IMG/VR virus record: IMGVR_UViG_3300024999_000350
Coordinates: 1 to 26,030 of that record
Direction: 5' to 3' (one strand)
DNA length: 26,030 nucleotides
Origin: a virus
Of the stretch, positions 2,945-18,406 are shown piece after piece (positions within the stretch are counted from its first letter, which is position 1; each line of letters begins with the position of its first letter). A program made the translations under genes and the position numbers. The notes below the pieces were generated by a model, which did no database searches, was not told the DNA's origin, and saw only the letters and a list, made by a program, of their open reading frames with translations.

Positions 2945-2976
2945 AGGTAAAGGAAAGACCACTATTTAGTGGCCTT
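2945..2976 (-). terminator. Terminator after the standalone RHH gene
   Basis: The minus-strand RNA forms an 8-bp stem AAGGCCAC/GTGGTCTT (one G-U pair; A-C mismatch on the opposite strand) with loop TAAATA, then TCCTTT. It overlaps the stop codon of the gene at 2962-3129 and separates minus operons A and B. Confidence 0.55.
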
Positions 2977-3129
2977 AGTGCGGATGTAATCGCTGATTGT
3001 TTGCCCTGATGCTGTGGCTAGTTGGCGTATGGTGGACCATTCTGCGTCGGTCATGCGGATTGTGCGGTTGGTTGCTTTTTCTGCGATGGGTTTTCGTCCG
3101 GCTCCGGTTCGTTTACCACCACTGGTCAT
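2962..3129 (-). CDS. Ribbon-helix-helix DNA-binding protein (55 aa)
   Basis: The product MTSGGKRTGAGRKPIAEKAT then shows a strand-helix-helix pattern: TNRTIRMTDAEWSTIRQLAT and SGQTISDYIRTKA. The -RTIRMTDAEW- strand followed by two helices is typical of small RHH (MobC/CopG-like) proteins that act as dimers on operators. The ATG (3129) overlaps the TAA of the gene upstream by one base. It shares the GAGRKP-plus-TDxEx module with the two genes downstream in operon B. Probably a regulator, possibly of the promoter at 2838-2867. Confidence 0.65.
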   Translation of the reverse strand: MTSGGKRTGAGRKPIAEKATNRTIRMTDAEWSTIRQLATASGQTISDYIRTKATK

Positions 3130-5277: not shown

Positions 5278-5441
5278 CTGCGTTGGTACGTAGGATACGT
5301 ACGTTAAGCCTTGTGCATAAAAAGAAAACAAAAGCGACCTCATGCCTAGCGCCACAAGGGTTTAGGGAAAAATATAATCTCACATTTTTGTGCTGAGAGA
5401 CATGCCGTATACACATTTTTGTGTGATAGGGAGTGACAATA
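5278..5441. promoter_or_regulatory. Regulatory region rich in palindromes
   Basis: This 164-bp gap holds TACGTA twice (5287-5292, 5296-5301), the inverted repeat CCTTGTG (5309-5315) with CACAAGG (5353-5359), a good -10 hexamer TATAAT (5373-5378) without a clear -35, and two CACATTTTTGTG palindromes. It controls, or is bound by, the winged-helix protein that follows. Confidence 0.5.
5381..5423. promoter_or_regulatory. Tandem palindromic operator candidates
   Basis: The 12-bp palindrome CACATTTTTGTG (CACA/TGTG arms) occurs at 5381-5392 and again at 5412-5423, 31 bp apart, about three helical turns. The first begins 3 bp after TATAAT, where the transcription start would fall. The second is just before the ribosome-binding site AGGGAG of the winged-helix gene. 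This layout fits cooperative repressor binding on one DNA face. Confidence 0.55.
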
Positions 5442-5987
5442 TTGGCTGTAAGATTAGTAAAAGACATTAACGCTGATGGGGAAGTTTTTAGCGAAAAGGA
5501 AATAAAGATGCCTGATAGATTCAATGAAGATGGTTATCTTATCCCTTACAATAAGCGTGGTTCCAAGATGTTTGCCGACGTTCCATTCCCTGAGCGCATG
5601 AATGATGCGGAGATAGGTAAAACTGCAAGGCTGGCAAAGTTGATGGTATCCACTTCTAACATGTTGGGATACAGAACTAGAACAGGGATCATGCCATATA
5701 CGGAAAAAGAGTTAATTGATCTTGTTGGGTTATCTTCGTATCGTGGTAAGGAATACATTTCCAAGATGATAAACGTTGGCATGATGCAAAGGAATAAGAG
5801 AATTATAGGCGAGGTTGAGAGTGAGGAATTCTATCTTAACCCTGCTTATTTTTTTGCAGGAAAACGCCTTTCCCTAAATCTCTATTTATTATTCAGGGAA
5901 AATCTGGACCCCATATTATCGCAATGGGCAAGAAGCGAATTCCAACAAGCTGCAATGCTTCAGGTTAAGCCTCGCGAACATAAGTGA
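5442..5987 (+). CDS. Winged-helix DNA-binding protein, RepL-like
   Basis: The middle (KTARLAKLMVSTSNMLGYRT, then YTEKELIDLVGLSSYRGKEY, then ISKMINVGMMQRNK) reads as a winged HTH. The following segment FYLNPAYFFAGKRLSLNLYL resembles the NP-x-Y/F-x-x-GK motif of RepL-type plasmid and phage replication initiators and related regulators. TTG at 5442 is preferred because AGGGAG lies about seven bases upstream; GTG at 5433 abuts that site. About 181 aa. Palindromes at 5381-5423 in its leader suggest autoregulation. A replication role is possible, but its place inside the packaging genes favours a regulator. Family call is moderate. Confidence 0.6.
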   Translation: MAVRLVKDINADGEVFSEKEIKMPDRFNEDGYLIPYNKRGSKMFADVPFPERMNDAEIGKTARLAKLMVSTSNMLGYRTRTGIMPYTEKELIDLVGLSSYRGKEYISKMINVGMMQRNKRIIGEVESEEFYLNPAYFFAGKRLSLNLYLLFRENLDPILSQWARSEFQQAAMLQVKPREHK

Positions 5988-6313: not shown

Positions 6314-7930
6314 ATGGCAGAGGTTAAAGTTAAGAAGGCTGATGCTGTGTCTAAGCCTAAGATAAAGCAGAGTGATTTGCCATCGTTAGTGGCGATACAG
6401 GCTGAGCTAGGCAAGAGAAGTTGTCAATACTTTATAGAGAAGTTCGTTAAGATTGAGGATCGGGACGCTGATGAGTTGGCAGTTCCTTTTACTTTATGGC
6501 CTAAGCAGGTAGGAGCGCTAGAAAGCTTTGTTAACAACAGATTGAACATTGTATTGAAAGCAAGACAGCTTGGTCTAACATGGCTTGCGTTGTCTTATGC
6601 GGTATGGAAGATAATACATCAACCTGGTTACGCGGTTGTTGCAATGTCAAAGCGTGAAGAAGATGCAAAGGAATTAGCAAGGCGTATCGGATTCGTTTTA
6701 AAATATCTACCACCTACTATGATTCAGGACAAGAAAACTGCTGGAAAATGGGCAGGATTAACATGGGAAGCAACCACCCTAACTATCACCATTAATCATC
6801 CCGGAAAAGAACCCAGTGTATTTAATTCCCTGACTTCAGCTCAAGATTCAGGACGTTCATTGACTGCTAGTTTAGTTATCCTTGATGAGTGGGCCTTTCA
6901 GCAATGGGCAAGGGAGATATATGCCAGTATATATCCCACAGTGAACCGCCCTACTGGTGGTCAAATTATCGGATTGAGTACGGCAAAGAGAATGACATTG
7001 TTCGAGGAAATATGGAAAAAATCGGTAGCAGGTGTCAATACTTTTGCTAGGGTATTTCTATCGTGGGATACTGACCCAAGGAGAACCGAAGAGTGGTACG
7101 AGCAGACTAAAAAGGATTTATCTAACTCTTATCGAGCTGAGTACCCGAATACAGCCGAAGAAGCTTTCGAGGCTTCTGAGGGCATAGCATTCCCTGAGTT
7201 CAGCCACGAACTTCATGTTATTGAACCATTTGTAATTCCTACACATTGGAGACGTTGGAGATCGGCAGATAACGGTTACACGGATTCATTCGCCTGGTAT
7301 TGGTTTTGCGTCGATGAGGGCGGAACGGTGTACATCTACAGGGAATACACAAGAGAACCTAAGGACCCAAAAGTTAGCTACTCGGATCAAGCAAAACAAG
7401 TTGTTTTAAAGAGTGGTTCGGAACGTATCGGCTTTACTGTAGTTGGACATGATGCCTTTTCTATTCATCCTCTTACTAAAAGCACTAGCACTCCGCAAGG
7501 TAAATCAATCATTGACTTCTATATCGAAGGTGGTGTTACTGATTCATTAAGGGCAGTAACCGACAGGACCTTCCGTAAAGCCGTTTATCACGAGTATCTA
7601 AAGCCATACTTTGATGAGAATACGGAGAAGATGACGAGTAAGGTTAAAATATTCAATACCTGTACTAAGTTAGTTGAAACATTACCCCAACTTCTGATAG
7701 ATGACAAGAACCCCGAAAAGGTTATGGAATGCTCATACGATCACTGGTACGATGGTGCGGGATATGGATTAATTTCCCATCACAGTAATAAAACGGAATT
7801 AGAAGTCAGTTATAATTACAAGGATTTACCAGAGGATGTAATTGAGGATTTGGATCGTTGTCGCACTCAGGAAGAACGTCAATATATTCTATCTAAAATT
7901 GGCAGGATGCCACAAACTGTATGTAGGTAA
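6314..7930 (+). CDS. terL: Terminase large subunit
   Basis: ATP-driven packaging motor and nuclease. ATPase motifs: a Walker A-type LKARQLGLTWLAL (about 81-93), Walker B VILDEWAF (188-195) and the coupling motif GLSTAKR (220-226). The RNase H-like nuclease shows acidic positions in SADNGYTDSFAWYWF (D319), VVGHDAFS (D380) and SYDHWYDGAGYGL (D476/D480). At 538 aa it is full length. ATG at 6314 follows AAGGTGA; the nearer ATG at 6308 gives a six-residue dead end. It works with the small subunit at 3822-4358 and docks on the portal. An RHH/HNH module is inserted directly after it. Confidence 0.92.
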   Translation: MAEVKVKKADAVSKPKIKQSDLPSLVAIQAELGKRSCQYFIEKFVKIEDRDADELAVPFTLWPKQVGALESFVNNRLNIVLKARQLGLTWLALSYAVWKIIHQPGYAVVAMSKREEDAKELARRIGFVLKYLPPTMIQDKKTAGKWAGLTWEATTLTITINHPGKEPSVFNSLTSAQDSGRSLTASLVILDEWAFQQWAREIYASIYPTVNRPTGGQIIGLSTAKRMTLFEEIWKKSVAGVNTFARVFLSWDTDPRRTEEWYEQTKKDLSNSYRAEYPNTAEEAFEASEGIAFPEFSHELHVIEPFVIPTHWRRWRSADNGYTDSFAWYWFCVDEGGTVYIYREYTREPKDPKVSYSDQAKQVVLKSGSERIGFTVVGHDAFSIHPLTKSTSTPQGKSIIDFYIEGGVTDSLRAVTDRTFRKAVYHEYLKPYFDENTEKMTSKVKIFNTCTKLVETLPQLLIDDKNPEKVMECSYDHWYDGAGYGLISHHSNKTELEVSYNYKDLPEDVIEDLDRCRTQEERQYILSKIGRMPQTVCR

Positions 7931-7962
7931 AAAAAGGAACGAGCTAATCACTTAGCCCGTTC
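7929..7962 (-). terminator. Terminator of the minus-strand RHH gene
   Basis: On the minus strand GAACGGGCTAA, loop GTGA, TTAGCTCGTTC (one mismatch) is followed by CTTTTTT. The hairpin overlaps the RHH stop codon. It is convergent with the large terminase gene, whose stop is at 7928-7930. Confidence 0.75.
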
Positions 7963-8096
7963 AAATAATCCATTAGTATTGTGATAACCAAGTTATTAAA
8001 GCTCCTGTTTTTATTCTTCGCTATTTCCTCTAACTGCTTCTTTAATTCTTTTGGGATAGTAATATTTGTCCTTGTGTTCTCTTCGCTTATCGCCAT
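7944..8096 (-). CDS. CopG/Arc-like ribbon-helix-helix repressor (50 aa)
   Basis: The product is almost exactly one RHH domain: strand TRTNITIPKEL, helix KKQLEEIAKNK, turn NRS, helix FNNLVITILMDYL. RHH proteins dimerise and insert the strand in the major groove; most are repressors. ATG at 8096 follows AGGTGATTAATA. It is divergent from the HNH endonuclease gene, and both promoters share one -35 element (8116-8167), so it probably represses itself and the endonuclease. It lies on the opposite strand to the late genes and has its own terminator. It could formally be an antitoxin-like protein, but its neighbour is a nuclease of the homing type. Confidence 0.75.
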   Translation of the reverse strand: MAISEENTRTNITIPKELKKQLEEIAKNKNRSFNNLVITILMDYLNGLSD

Positions 8097-8115: not shown

Positions 8116-8167
8116 ATTATATCACTAATCCCATCGTGTTGCAATGGTGGTGTCATCGTGGTATAAT
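8116..8167. promoter_or_regulatory. Symmetric bidirectional promoter sharing one -35 hexamer
   Basis: The layout is ATTATA (8116-8121), 17 bp, TTGCAA (8139-8144), 17 bp, TATAAT (8162-8167). TTGCAA is its own reverse complement, so it can act as -35 for TATAAT in both directions with identical 17-bp spacers. Minus transcripts enter the RHH gene, plus transcripts the HNH gene. The heptamer CATCGTG occurs twice (8132-8138, 8154-8160) and may be an operator repeat. Confidence 0.75.
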
Positions 8168-8188
8168 ATAAGTAAGGAGGTAATAACT

Positions 8189-9109
8189 ATGAGTGAAATT
8201 AAGACTAAGGCGTGCCCTGGTTGTAAGCGTGATCTAGAGTTGTCTAGAATGTATTTTTTTGTAAGAAAAACCACGAAGGATGGATTCCACAACAGGTGCA
8301 GGGAGTGCGATGGTAAGAGTTTTGCGCAACCCAAGGTTATCGCGAAGGAAGGTTACAAAATATGCTCAAAATGTGGGATAGAGTTACTATGTGACAATTT
8401 CGGGATATGCAAGCAGAACGTTGACGGCCTACATGGTCAATGCAAAGAGTGTGTAGCCATTTACATGGGGCAATGGAGAGACGACAATAGGGAAATAAAT
8501 ACTGTAAAGCGGAAGTTAAGGTATGATGAAAATAGAGAGGTTTTCATAAACAGAGTAAAAATATATCAATCAAACAATGTAGAATCCGTCGTCAAGAGAA
8601 GAAGTCTGCACTATATAAAAAATAAAGTTTCTATCGGCATAGAAAGAAAGATTTATCAAAATAAGAATAAGGATAATATCAGGGAGTACCATAGGAGATA
8701 TAACTTTAAAAATAAGGACATTATTTCCGAGCATAATAAGGAGTATCACAAAAGTCATCCAGGTGCAGCCAGAATACGAAACCAAAGACGTAGGGCCAGG
8801 GAAAAGAAACTCCTCCATACGTTTACTAATGAACAATGGGGAGAATCCTTGCTATACTTTGATAACAAGTGTTGCTTTTGCGACAGAGAAACAAAACTTA
8901 CGATGGAACATATATACTGCGTTGCTAGTGGCGGGGAGTTTACGAGGCAGAACATAACGCCTTCTTGTTTTACGTGCAATAGCAGTAAGCACACTAGGGA
9001 ACCATTTGAGTGGTTTAGGGAACAATTGTTCTATTCACCTGAACGTGAACAAAAAATCCTCTCCTACCTCGGATACAAAAACAATCGACAACAACTAGCT
9101 CTATTTTAA
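8189..9109 (+). CDS. HNH homing-type endonuclease with N-terminal zinc fingers
   Basis: 306 aa. Two N-terminal zinc-finger units (C9/C12 with C37/C40; C59/C62 with C85/C88) are followed by a long basic, helical linker with repeated YxxNK-type units (about 100-205). The C-terminal HNH nuclease has CCFC (C228, C231), the catalytic-type MEH (H241), QN and CFTC (C260, C263) before NSSKH. It ends EREQKILSYLGY...QQLALF. ATG at 8189 follows AAGGAGG; a longer frame reaches 8144 but starts before the -10. It has its own promoter and terminator between terL and portal, typical of a selfish free-standing endonuclease. A paralogue lies at 17396-18406. Confidence 0.85.
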   Translation: MSEIKTKACPGCKRDLELSRMYFFVRKTTKDGFHNRCRECDGKSFAQPKVIAKEGYKICSKCGIELLCDNFGICKQNVDGLHGQCKECVAIYMGQWRDDNREINTVKRKLRYDENREVFINRVKIYQSNNVESVVKRRSLHYIKNKVSIGIERKIYQNKNKDNIREYHRRYNFKNKDIISEHNKEYHKSHPGAARIRNQRRRAREKKLLHTFTNEQWGESLLYFDNKCCFCDRETKLTMEHIYCVASGGEFTRQNITPSCFTCNSSKHTREPFEWFREQLFYSPEREQKILSYLGYKNNRQQLALF

Positions 9110-9121
9110 TAAGGAAAACTC

Positions 9122-9148
9122 AAGGCGCTCAACCGAGTGCCTTTTCTT
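9122..9148 (+). terminator. Terminator of the first HNH gene
   Basis: AAGGCGCTC, loop AACC, GAGTGCCTT (one G-T pair) followed by TTCTT. It closes the HNH unit just before the portal ribosome-binding site. Confidence 0.75.
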
Positions 9149-9174
9149 ATGCTCATTTTTAGGAGGTGGTTCAA

Positions 9175-11316
9175 ATTTTAGACAAACTCAAAAAGCTAGG
9201 GGGTGAAATCATCACTAAGATCAAAGATAAAAAGCTCTCCATGAAAGAGGAATCAGAACAGCAAGCCAAGCTAAAAAAGTGGATTGACAAGTTTGAAGAG
9301 GCTAGAACTGGCATCGACGAGGCACTCAGAGACGAGCGAGAAGCAATCTACCTTGGCACAAAAACAGTGGATGGCAATATAAATGCCCGTTCATCGAATG
9401 GAAAGCGAAAACAAGCGAACAACGTCGTCAACCTAGTCCTTGAGTTCATCGAGACGGGTGTTGACAGCACAATCCCCCAACCCTCAGCCCGAACCAAACT
9501 CCCCGGCTATGAAGCTCAAGCCATGATGATCGAAGACTCTCTCACCTCTGACATAACAGAACTTGGCATGACAGCAATCAACGATGTAAACGAGCGCATA
9601 ACCCCGGTGCAGGGCTACTCTGCTATGCTCGTAGGCTGGAACCCAGACTTTAAACATCATCTTTACCGAGGCGAATTAGAAATAGAATCAGTTCACCCAA
9701 AACGCATCGTTCCACAGCCCGGGGTATTCTCCCTGCAAGCCATGGACTACTTCTTTATTCTGTCCTCAGTCACAAAGAACTACATCAAGAAGCGATATGA
9801 TGTGGATCTCGAAAACTCGGGAGAACAATTCCCTAACATTAGTATTGTCAGCAACACCACTCAGCCCAACAACCCTGACATGGTGACAGAGATTGTCTGC
9901 TGGTATAAGAATGATGATGGAGAAGTATCGAAGCTCGTTTGGTGCGAGGAACAAATTCTTGAGGACATGGAGAACTTCTACGCTCGACGCATTAATGGAA
10001 AGATCCAAGAGTTTGAAGAACTAGGCACCGAAGTAACTCTCTCATCCGGCGAAGTCCTCCCCGTAGGAGCAAAGGTTCCATACTTCACCCCGACACGCTA
10101 CCCTCTAATCATTCGCGAAAACATTCCCCTAAACTTCGCGTTCGGTGGACAATCGGACGTGGACGTTATCCGCGACCAACAGGACGCTTATAAAAAGGTA
10201 ATATCCACCATCGAAGAAAAGATTATGCGCGGTTCCGTTGTTATTACTGCATTAGAAGGTCATAGACTCAACCTATCCAATGAATTATATGGAATTATTA
10301 GGGGAAATCAATCAGAACTCGCGGCATTAGGCGTAAAGAACCTATCTGCAAGCATTGGTGATGACCTTGCCTTTGCTCAACAGCAATACAAAGCAGCGCA
10401 ATCAACACTCGGCATCACAAACTCATACCAGGGAAAATCAGACTCAACCGCAGTATCCGGCCTAGCAAAACAAATCCAAGTACAACAGGCATCCGGACGC
10501 CTTCGCTCAAAAGAATCAAATAAGTATGCCGCGTTCAAGCAACTCTACGAAATAATGTTCGAGTTCAAGCTTGCCTTCTATGATGAGCTTCGACCATTCG
10601 TGACAAAGGATGCTAACGGTCAGGACTCGTTTGGCGATTTCAACAAGTATGCCTTCCTTGTTCGCGATAAGGCCGGCGAACTCTACTACAACACAGACTT
10701 TATCTTTCAAGCTGATGCAGGCGCAGGACTACCGAGGGATAAGATGTGGCTATTCTCTCAAGCGACAGAAATGCTGAAGTATGGAGCATATAACCCAACC
10801 CCCGCCTCCGTTGTTCTGTGGACCCAACTTGTGGCGCAGAAATTCCCTAATGCTAAAACGATACTCGACAGCATCAATAAGCAACTCGAAGCACAGGCGA
10901 AGGCACCACCACCACAGCCGGAAGCTAAGGTATCTATTAACTATGAGGACCTAATGCCTGACGCTCAATCTCAAATGTTAGGAAAGATGGGGATCAAATC
11001 ACAAGGAGGACAACCGGAACAGATGGGGCAGCTACTACAGATGCCACAACAAGGTTTGCAACCGACACCAATGTCGGGAGCAAATGAACAACCTCAAGAA
11101 ATGCCACCACAAGCCACACAACAGCCTATGGAGGCACAACAACCGCAGGAACAGATTGACCCACAGTCACAGGTGATGCAAATTCTACAGGAGGCTCTAG
11201 CGAATATGAGTCCAGAAGAACGGCAAGCTTTTGAGAGTGCAACTGATGAGCAGAAGATGAGGGTAGTTCAAATGTTAATGGAACAACAGGGTCAACAGCA
11301 AGAAGGAGGGCAATAG
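9175..11316 (+). CDS. Portal protein
   Basis: Forms the ring at the unique capsid vertex through which DNA is pumped. Support: position after terL and before scaffold and capsid, a length of about 713 aa, and the portal-like core (WNPDFKHHLYRGELEIESVH; FGGQSDVDVIRDQQDAYKKV; IEEKIMRGSVVI). From about residue 590 the tail is Gln/Pro/Met-rich, as in many podovirus-type portals. Start: AGGAGGTGG (9161-9169) is followed at five bases by ATT (9175). The in-frame GTG at 9166 lies inside that site, and the next ATG is at 9241. ATT initiation is therefore proposed but not proven. Many codons end in C in the first half, unlike terL. Confidence 0.85.
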   Translation: MLDKLKKLGGEIITKIKDKKLSMKEESEQQAKLKKWIDKFEEARTGIDEALRDEREAIYLGTKTVDGNINARSSNGKRKQANNVVNLVLEFIETGVDSTIPQPSARTKLPGYEAQAMMIEDSLTSDITELGMTAINDVNERITPVQGYSAMLVGWNPDFKHHLYRGELEIESVHPKRIVPQPGVFSLQAMDYFFILSSVTKNYIKKRYDVDLENSGEQFPNISIVSNTTQPNNPDMVTEIVCWYKNDDGEVSKLVWCEEQILEDMENFYARRINGKIQEFEELGTEVTLSSGEVLPVGAKVPYFTPTRYPLIIRENIPLNFAFGGQSDVDVIRDQQDAYKKVISTIEEKIMRGSVVITALEGHRLNLSNELYGIIRGNQSELAALGVKNLSASIGDDLAFAQQQYKAAQSTLGITNSYQGKSDSTAVSGLAKQIQVQQASGRLRSKESNKYAAFKQLYEIMFEFKLAFYDELRPFVTKDANGQDSFGDFNKYAFLVRDKAGELYYNTDFIFQADAGAGLPRDKMWLFSQATEMLKYGAYNPTPASVVLWTQLVAQKFPNAKTILDSINKQLEAQAKAPPPQPEAKVSINYEDLMPDAQSQMLGKMGIKSQGGQPEQMGQLLQMPQQGLQPTPMSGANEQPQEMPPQATQQPMEAQQPQEQIDPQSQVMQILQEALANMSPEERQAFESATDEQKMRVVQMLMEQQGQQQEGGQ

Positions 11317-17395: not shown

Positions 17396-18406
17396 ATGTC
17401 TGAAATGAAGAGATGTTCAACTTGTAAACAGGAATTACCGGCAGATAGGATACATTTTCATTCAGCTGGCGATCGTAATGGAAGGTTGCGGTCTTCATGT
17501 AAAGAATGTGAAAAAATTAAACATGCCAAATCTAAGCCTTATAAGCCTGTTGCCAAGAAAGATCATAGGATATGCACGGCGTGTGGTATTGAATTCCCAG
17601 AGACGATTGAGTATTTTCAACTAAGAGCGCGGAGCGATAAATTTAGAAGTCTTTGCAAGGGTTGTATATCTAAACAAAAGGCCAAGAATTATCAAAACAA
17701 TCAGGAAAAGTTTATTGTTCGCTCAAAAATGTATTATTCGGAACACAAGGACAGAATGCGTAATTGGGGGAGGGAATATTACTACAGAAATAAAGAACGC
17801 ATAACGATTCAGCGCATCGAGAAGAGGGAAATATACTTAAATCGCTCTAGGTTATGGAGGGAAGCCAATAAAGAGTATATAGTCAAAAAGGGTAAGGAAT
17901 ACTACGATTCCCACAAAGAGTCAATATCTAAAACAGCTAAGATATATCGCATGAAAAATGAAAAGATTATTGCGTTTAAGAGGAGAATGAAGTTCGAGGA
18001 AAATCCAGAATTATATTTATCTAAGCGAAGAGCCTATTTTATTGAGAACAGGGAGAAAATTCGCTTCTATCATCATGGCAGAAGGGTCAGAATACGCGAA
18101 TTACCCAGTACATTAACTATCTCGCAATGGGATAGCATAAAATTAAGCTTCGACAACAAATGTTGTTATTGCGGTGAATCTAAACCTCTTGCTCAAGAAC
18201 ATTTTTTACCAGTAATAAGAGACGGGGAATATTCCCACAACAACATCCTGTGCGCTTGCCAATCTTGCAATAGCTCAAAGGGTACAAAGTCATTTTTTGA
18301 ATGGTATCCAAAGTTTAAACATTATTCAAAACGGCGTGAACGTAAAATACTAACCTTTTTGCACTACGAAAAAGATACTCATATTCAACAATTAGCACTC
18401 TTATAG
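17396..18406 (+). CDS. HNH homing-type endonuclease, second copy
   Basis: 336 aa paralogue of the protein at 8189-9109. Two zinc-finger units (C7/C10 with C35/C38; C60/C63 with C87/C90), a basic linker with repeated YY-x-x-NK/SHKE units (about 110-225), and an HNH core CCYC (C256, C259), QEH (H269), NN and CQSC (C288, C291) before NSSKG. The ends match too: ERKILTFLHY...QQLALL. ATG at 17396 follows AGGAAGGG by about ten bases; the site can lie in the loop of AAAAAACC/GGTTGTTTTTT. It is inserted between adaptor and nozzle genes with its own promoter and terminator. No RHH gene accompanies it. Confidence 0.85.
   Translation: MSEMKRCSTCKQELPADRIHFHSAGDRNGRLRSSCKECEKIKHAKSKPYKPVAKKDHRICTACGIEFPETIEYFQLRARSDKFRSLCKGCISKQKAKNYQNNQEKFIVRSKMYYSEHKDRMRNWGREYYYRNKERITIQRIEKREIYLNRSRLWREANKEYIVKKGKEYYDSHKESISKTAKIYRMKNEKIIAFKRRMKFEENPELYLSKRRAYFIENREKIRFYHHGRRVRIRELPSTLTISQWDSIKLSFDNKCCYCGESKPLAQEHFLPVIRDGEYSHNNILCACQSCNSSKGTKSFFEWYPKFKHYSKRRERKILTFLHYEKDTHIQQLALL

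Follow-up and report, generated by a model that had tools for sequence, protein, structure and literature searches.

The window (the whole 26,030-nucleotide stretch of viral DNA analysed here) carries its terminase region, portal and virion genes all on the plus strand. Between terL and the portal gene lie two divergent genes. The one on the minus strand (7944-8096) encodes a 50-aa protein consisting of a bare Arc/CopG-type ribbon-helix-helix (RHH) domain, as judged from Pfam and fold: RHH_5 (26.9 bits, cut-off 26) and Arc (22.2 bits, cut-off 20.4) both scored above the gathering cut-off, the AF2 model was helix-helix, and the best Foldseek matches were all RHH proteins, Arc and CopG included. 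The plus-strand gene (8189-9109) encodes a 306-aa nuclease with a zinc-ribbon and an HNH domain (PF01844, 24.4 bits, cut-off 21.4), and is probably a free-standing homing endonuclease. A strong intrinsic terminator was predicted for the RHH transcript (7937-7962, minus strand; 11-bp stem and T run), the stem of which is retained, with changes, in the related phage L023; a terminator-like hairpin follows the HNH gene (9122-9143, plus strand), with similar hairpins in L022, L020 and L006.

No relatives were found in the viral contigs with the window HNH protein as sole query; they were reached via terminase and RHH protein searches. The terL-portal junction was empty (about 20 bases) in the terminase relatives L005, L011, L013 and L027, which lack the RHH/HNH insertion, and was filled with different cargo in further terminase relatives; in L004/L022 and L020 it held an HNH gene without RHH. 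The window TerL ends in KIGR-MPQTVCR and that of the empty-site relatives stops at or just past KIGR (7895-7930), which suggests that the final terL codons and the stop were replaced by the insertion. At the portal start (9166-9200) relatives L022 and L003 use TTG, where the window has ATT preceded by AGGAGG; its portal gene would start either at this ATT or at a weak GTG at 9166.

Other observations were made at this junction and elsewhere. RHH-less HNH genes or remnants occupy the same junction in L022 (7600-7740), L017 (4320-4470), L020 (4740-4930) and L006 (7590-7820), with a TGGTATAA(T) motif directly behind terL and hairpin-like leaders; RHH-less HNH genes at this junction are perhaps cassettes that lost their repressor. 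An insert of about 1.1 kb, which may be an intron or intein, interrupts TerL after residue 482 in L015 and L016. A further window HNH gene of this type (17396-18406) has no RHH neighbour, and a minus-strand gene at 2962-3129 encodes a NikA/MobC-like RHH protein with homologues in L009 and L022.

The intergenic region contains the symmetric arrangement described in the sequence-only reading of this DNA: ATTATA-17-TTGCAA-17-TATAAT was matched exactly at 8116-8167, with 17-bp spacers both ways, once in the window and in none of 100 dinucleotide shuffles. Each direction scored 10/12 as a promoter with an extended -10 (TGG-TATAAT on the plus strand, TGA-TATAAT on the minus strand); the promoters are predictions from consensus matches, and so are their starts. 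The palindromic -35, TTGCAA (8139-8144), is common to both directions, the -10 of the RHH promoter lies at 8116-8121 (minus strand; TG at 8124-8123) and that of the HNH promoter at 8162-8167 (plus strand; TG at 8159-8160), the two hexamers being 46 bp apart start to start and the predicted transcription starts about 65 bp apart. The predicted 5' leaders (8109-8096 and 8174-8189) are only about 13-15 nt each and start at the Shine-Dalgarno sequence; the RHH-side leader distance is kept in most loci of the window's RHH family.

The same reading had placed the CATCGTG repeats on the plus side and proposed them as RHH binding sites. The two copies instead flank TTGCAA, one per side: copy 1 (8132-8138) abuts the -35 on the RHH side and is a possible second, weaker operator (O2), and copy 2 (8154-8160), 22 bp from copy 1, overlaps the extended -10 as well as the probable RHH site (O1, see below), an overlap that supports the proposed link between repeat and regulator.

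Recurrence of the promoter pattern and of the RHH/nuclease pair

In phage L023 a protein 84% identical to the window RHH over 50 aa is divergent to an HNH protein about 38% identical to that of the window, at a different place, between the small terminase gene and a gene homologous to window 5433-5984. The intergenic region aligns gap-free across the two promoters: TTGCAA and the HNH -10 (TATAAT) are invariant and both spacers are 17; the RHH -10 reads TACAAT, as it also does in L187, and in place of the CATCGTG copies stand CATTATG and CATGGTG. The view that a single -35 serves divergent RHH and HNH genes is thus supported, the arrangement being kept in relatives.

The exact promoter pattern was found in 97 stretches of the viral contigs, against two for the letter-reversed pattern (a somewhat too harsh control, since its AACGTT contains CpG) and two for the same hexamers at 12-bp spacing; its recurrence is not chance. 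Among 391 bacterial genomes of one class it was present in 10 and the control in one, and no RHH/nuclease cassette was recognised among the pattern matches of those 10 genomes. At 36 of the 70 unique viral pattern sites a neighbouring gene encodes an RHH protein from one of two families (one from family A, 35 from family B), so that a search for the DNA layout alone leads to RHH/nuclease cassettes. The family B partners at these sites (Pfam, 32 scanned) were HNH (9), GIY-YIG (8) and TnpB (7), with LAGLIDADG and HNH_3 also present. Long ORFs enclose eight of the 70 sites, most of which eight are probably chance occurrences. An interpretation of the 97 matches as cI/cro loci was dropped, ORF analysis having given RHH_3 plus nuclease for about half. 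In L155 (3178-4270) the same pattern separates a probable HNH-type gene from a divergent small ORF (61 aa) that is RHH-like and of a third kind.

Both families consist of RHH proteins of about 50 aa, A being that of the window and B corresponding to Pfam RHH_3. Overlapping -35s were found in 30 of 43 distinct family A loci (0.2 expected from dinucleotide shuffles), nearly all with 17/17 spacers and both -10s extended, in two sub-types: in one, both strands read TTGCAA; in the other, TTGACAA supplies TTGACA and, one base off, TTGTCA. For family B the protein search gave 43 of 63 distinct loci; these loci overlap with the pattern matches, so the protein and pattern searches are not fully independent. 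The remaining divergent gene pairs in the same loci had overlapping -35s in one case out of 94, itself the RHH cassette of L227.

The family A divergent partners belong, by Pfam, to HNH/HNH_5, TnpB, GIY-YIG, NUMOD4-HNH_3, HNH_2/HNH_3 and DUF559/MTES_1575; those of family B (56 scanned; the families may overlap) to TnpB (13), GIY-YIG (10), HNH (9), LAGLIDADG (5) and HNH_3 (3). By these domain assignments the selfish nucleases joined in the cassette are of at least five unrelated kinds: HNH, GIY-YIG, LAGLIDADG, TnpB and PD-(D/E)XK-like. Closely similar regulators stand beside different partners. The family B proteins of L132 and L079, 89% identical, neighbour GIY-YIG and LAGLIDADG respectively; the family A cores of L193 and L211, 97% identical, neighbour an AP2-like protein and NUMOD4-HNH; and in L192 a family A protein 87% identical to that of the window neighbours TnpB.

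This re-use argues against a toxin-antitoxin pair in which the RHH protein neutralises the nuclease by protein contact. RHH antitoxins are common, and the only PDB sequence match was the EndoAI antitoxin (E 0.008), but the RHH protein keeps 80-97% identity beside at least five unrelated partner folds, has 47-54 aa (a bare 50-aa domain in the window) without a toxin-binding tail, and is encoded divergently from its partner and not in one operon as in type II systems; we consider this explanation very improbable. It is hardly credible, too, that the RHH protein serves as a DNA-targeting or accessory subunit, constant neighbour of selfish nucleases though it is: TnpB is RNA-guided, the GIY-YIG, HNH and LAGLIDADG enzymes have DNA-binding parts of their own, and the RHH motif is located in the promoter.

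Some plasmid-borne family B proteins had non-nuclease partners. Family A was detected in two of the 391 bacterial genomes of one class, a rarity on which a chromosomal system was rejected. On a Peptoclostridium plasmid (L327) a family B RHH gene is divergent from an apparent TnpB gene (1000-2480) that is missing from the listed annotation. The Streptococcus thermophilus dairy phages SW1151 (L335) and CHPC1042 (L326) share the same RHH and the same CTACATGTAG site; SW1151 has kept the RHH gene but little of the HNH gene, and the retained RHH may confer immunity to nuclease carriers.

Candidate operators and the RHH beta-strand

A candidate RHH operator, O1 (TGGTGTCA, 8148-8155), was located in the HNH promoter spacer on the basis of conservation over 28 loci and of co-variation with the RHH beta-strand. 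The window sequence departs from the family consensus TGATANCA and is a poor palindrome, its fit to the class being loose. The nuclease-side spacer of family A was of the TGATANCA type at positions 4-11 in all 22 loci with the strand RT[NLQIV][IL]T[IL], and read TTACGTAA there in all six with R[SA]NL[IV]I. HNH partners occurred in both groups, indicating that the motif follows the regulator and not the nuclease. A weaker second operator-like copy was present in the RHH-side spacer of many family A loci and is degenerate in relatives.

The candidate operators of family B lie at spacer positions 1-10 and are mostly palindromic, with the pairs KDLK..RTP and GTCCTTGGAC, RGLK and CTACAWGTAG, RERY and CTTACGTAAG, and RIRIGNA and repeated CTTATAG. 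Similarity of operators and of beta-strands was correlated in partial Mantel tests (r = 0.71 for family A, n = 28; r = 0.62 for family B, n = 35; permutation p = 2e-4 each), which allow for the remainder of the RHH protein, so that the confound of common descent is reduced, not removed. Records outside the rule set showed KDLK with GTCCATGGAC (L327), RGLK/RGLT with CTACATGTAG (L326, L330) and SDLK..RIGN with CTTATATAAG (L333), which fits; L332, with KDLK and GATATC, is an out-of-sample failure, and L331 has a strand class for which the rule makes no prediction. The RHH protein may bind the operator sequence-specifically through its beta-strand, on which this co-variation bears indirectly.

Proposed regulation of the nuclease and comparison with known systems

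The reading that we favour, with a probability of roughly three in four, is that the RHH protein represses the divergent nuclease gene from the spacer operator and regulates itself, within a mobile cassette inserted between terL and the portal gene. A single -35 would carry two host sigma-70 type promoters facing opposite ways; the dimer encoded by the leftward RHH gene would bind the short palindromic operator in the HNH promoter spacer, and probably also the weaker copy beside the -35, blocking polymerase at the HNH promoter and regulating its own gene. In an RHH-free cell the nuclease would be expressed at once, in a burst; in a cell that already contains RHH it would stay off. Repression of the nuclease is the best-supported step of this scheme: the O1 centre (8151.5) is at about -22.5 of the HNH promoter, inside it, as expected for a repressor. 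Self-regulation, of either sign, is likely.

The common -35 would keep the region compact and admit one polymerase at a time. The earlier suggestion that the two genes are mutually exclusive by design holds only in part: exclusion at a single hexamer, of uncertain regulatory weight, follows from geometry, but several family A loci with separate -35s (among them L193, L208, L228, L211 and L179) keep operator-like sites and nuclease, so that a common -35 is not required. The same loci, which also retain the RHH gene, speak against the proposal that regulation comes mainly from polymerase competition, with the RHH protein incidental. The exact 17/17 spacing, the overlap of the -35s in most loci and the inability of one hexamer to hold two polymerases simultaneously agree with competition, but the operator co-varies with the RHH strand, and in the E. 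coli bidirectional promoters with a common -10 basal activity is too low for competition (PMC12825309); we regard it as unlikely. Those promoters resemble the window in their pseudo-symmetric DNA, on which polymerase takes two mutually exclusive orientations, but share the -10 and not the -35, and their starts, defined as 7-25 bp apart, mostly lie 18 bp from each other (PMC12825309, PMC10268837), against about 65 bp predicted here.

Self-regulation could also take the form of a bistable switch, in which O1-bound RHH represses the nuclease and activates its own promoter, the common -35 sharpening the choice. Lambda OR2 sits near -42 of PRM, the same place as O1 relative to the RHH promoter (about -42.5), and in family A the palindrome score was higher on the nuclease side in 15 loci against two. 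This bias was weak in family B (19 against 12), however, where the operators lie nearer the -35, and GTCC-class half-sites extend over the -35, favouring repression of both promoters; we consider such a lambda-like switch rather doubtful. Slightly less so, though still tentative, is the broader proposal of a portable RHH and common -35 cassette, repeatedly joined to unrelated nucleases, with a lambda-like switch and a readable strand-to-operator code.

Each element has precedents: RHH repressors, divergent phage switches and regulated homing endonucleases have all been described. The P22 immI arc/mnt-ant switch, with RHH repressors and divergent Pant/Pmnt promoters, is alike in its small RHH repressor, its operator within or near promoter elements and the divergence of the RHH gene from the gene thought to be controlled. 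It differs in that its effector is an antirepressor and not an HNH nuclease, and it is one locus, whereas the present cassette is common to many nuclease families; to our knowledge, Pant/Pmnt have not been described as using one palindromic -35. The controller proteins of restriction-modification systems are likewise small DNA-binding regulators that time a nuclease, but are of the HTH type, whereas here an RHH protein accompanies selfish nucleases without a methylase. T4 I-TevI is autorepressed via an operator overlapping its own promoter, and free-standing T4 homing endonucleases are regulated as well (PMC2988022). The likeness lies in a selfish phage nuclease repressed through such an operator; I-TevI represses itself and the promoters are T4 late/middle ones, whereas in the present cassette unrelated nucleases share a separate RHH gene. 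The open-access literature searched held no description of RHH proteins with TnpB, homing endonucleases or GIY-YIG, nor of an RHH cassette common to unrelated selfish nucleases via overlapping -35s, and the text of a paper on phage nuclease genes (PMC10448857) contains neither 'promoter' nor 'ribbon-helix-helix'.

Free-standing homing endonucleases and TnpB have mostly been studied as enzymes, and phage restraint of such cutters is known for few cases. The DNA signature locates such cassettes without protein knowledge, and the matched operator/strand pairs would supply small orthogonal repressors ready for use. If the lambda-like cassette were true, the nuclease would be induced zygotically in naive cells, followed by self-maintained silence and immunity to like cassettes. 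If the favoured reading is true, one repressor re-used across nuclease folds would explain how these nucleases are tolerated and timed.
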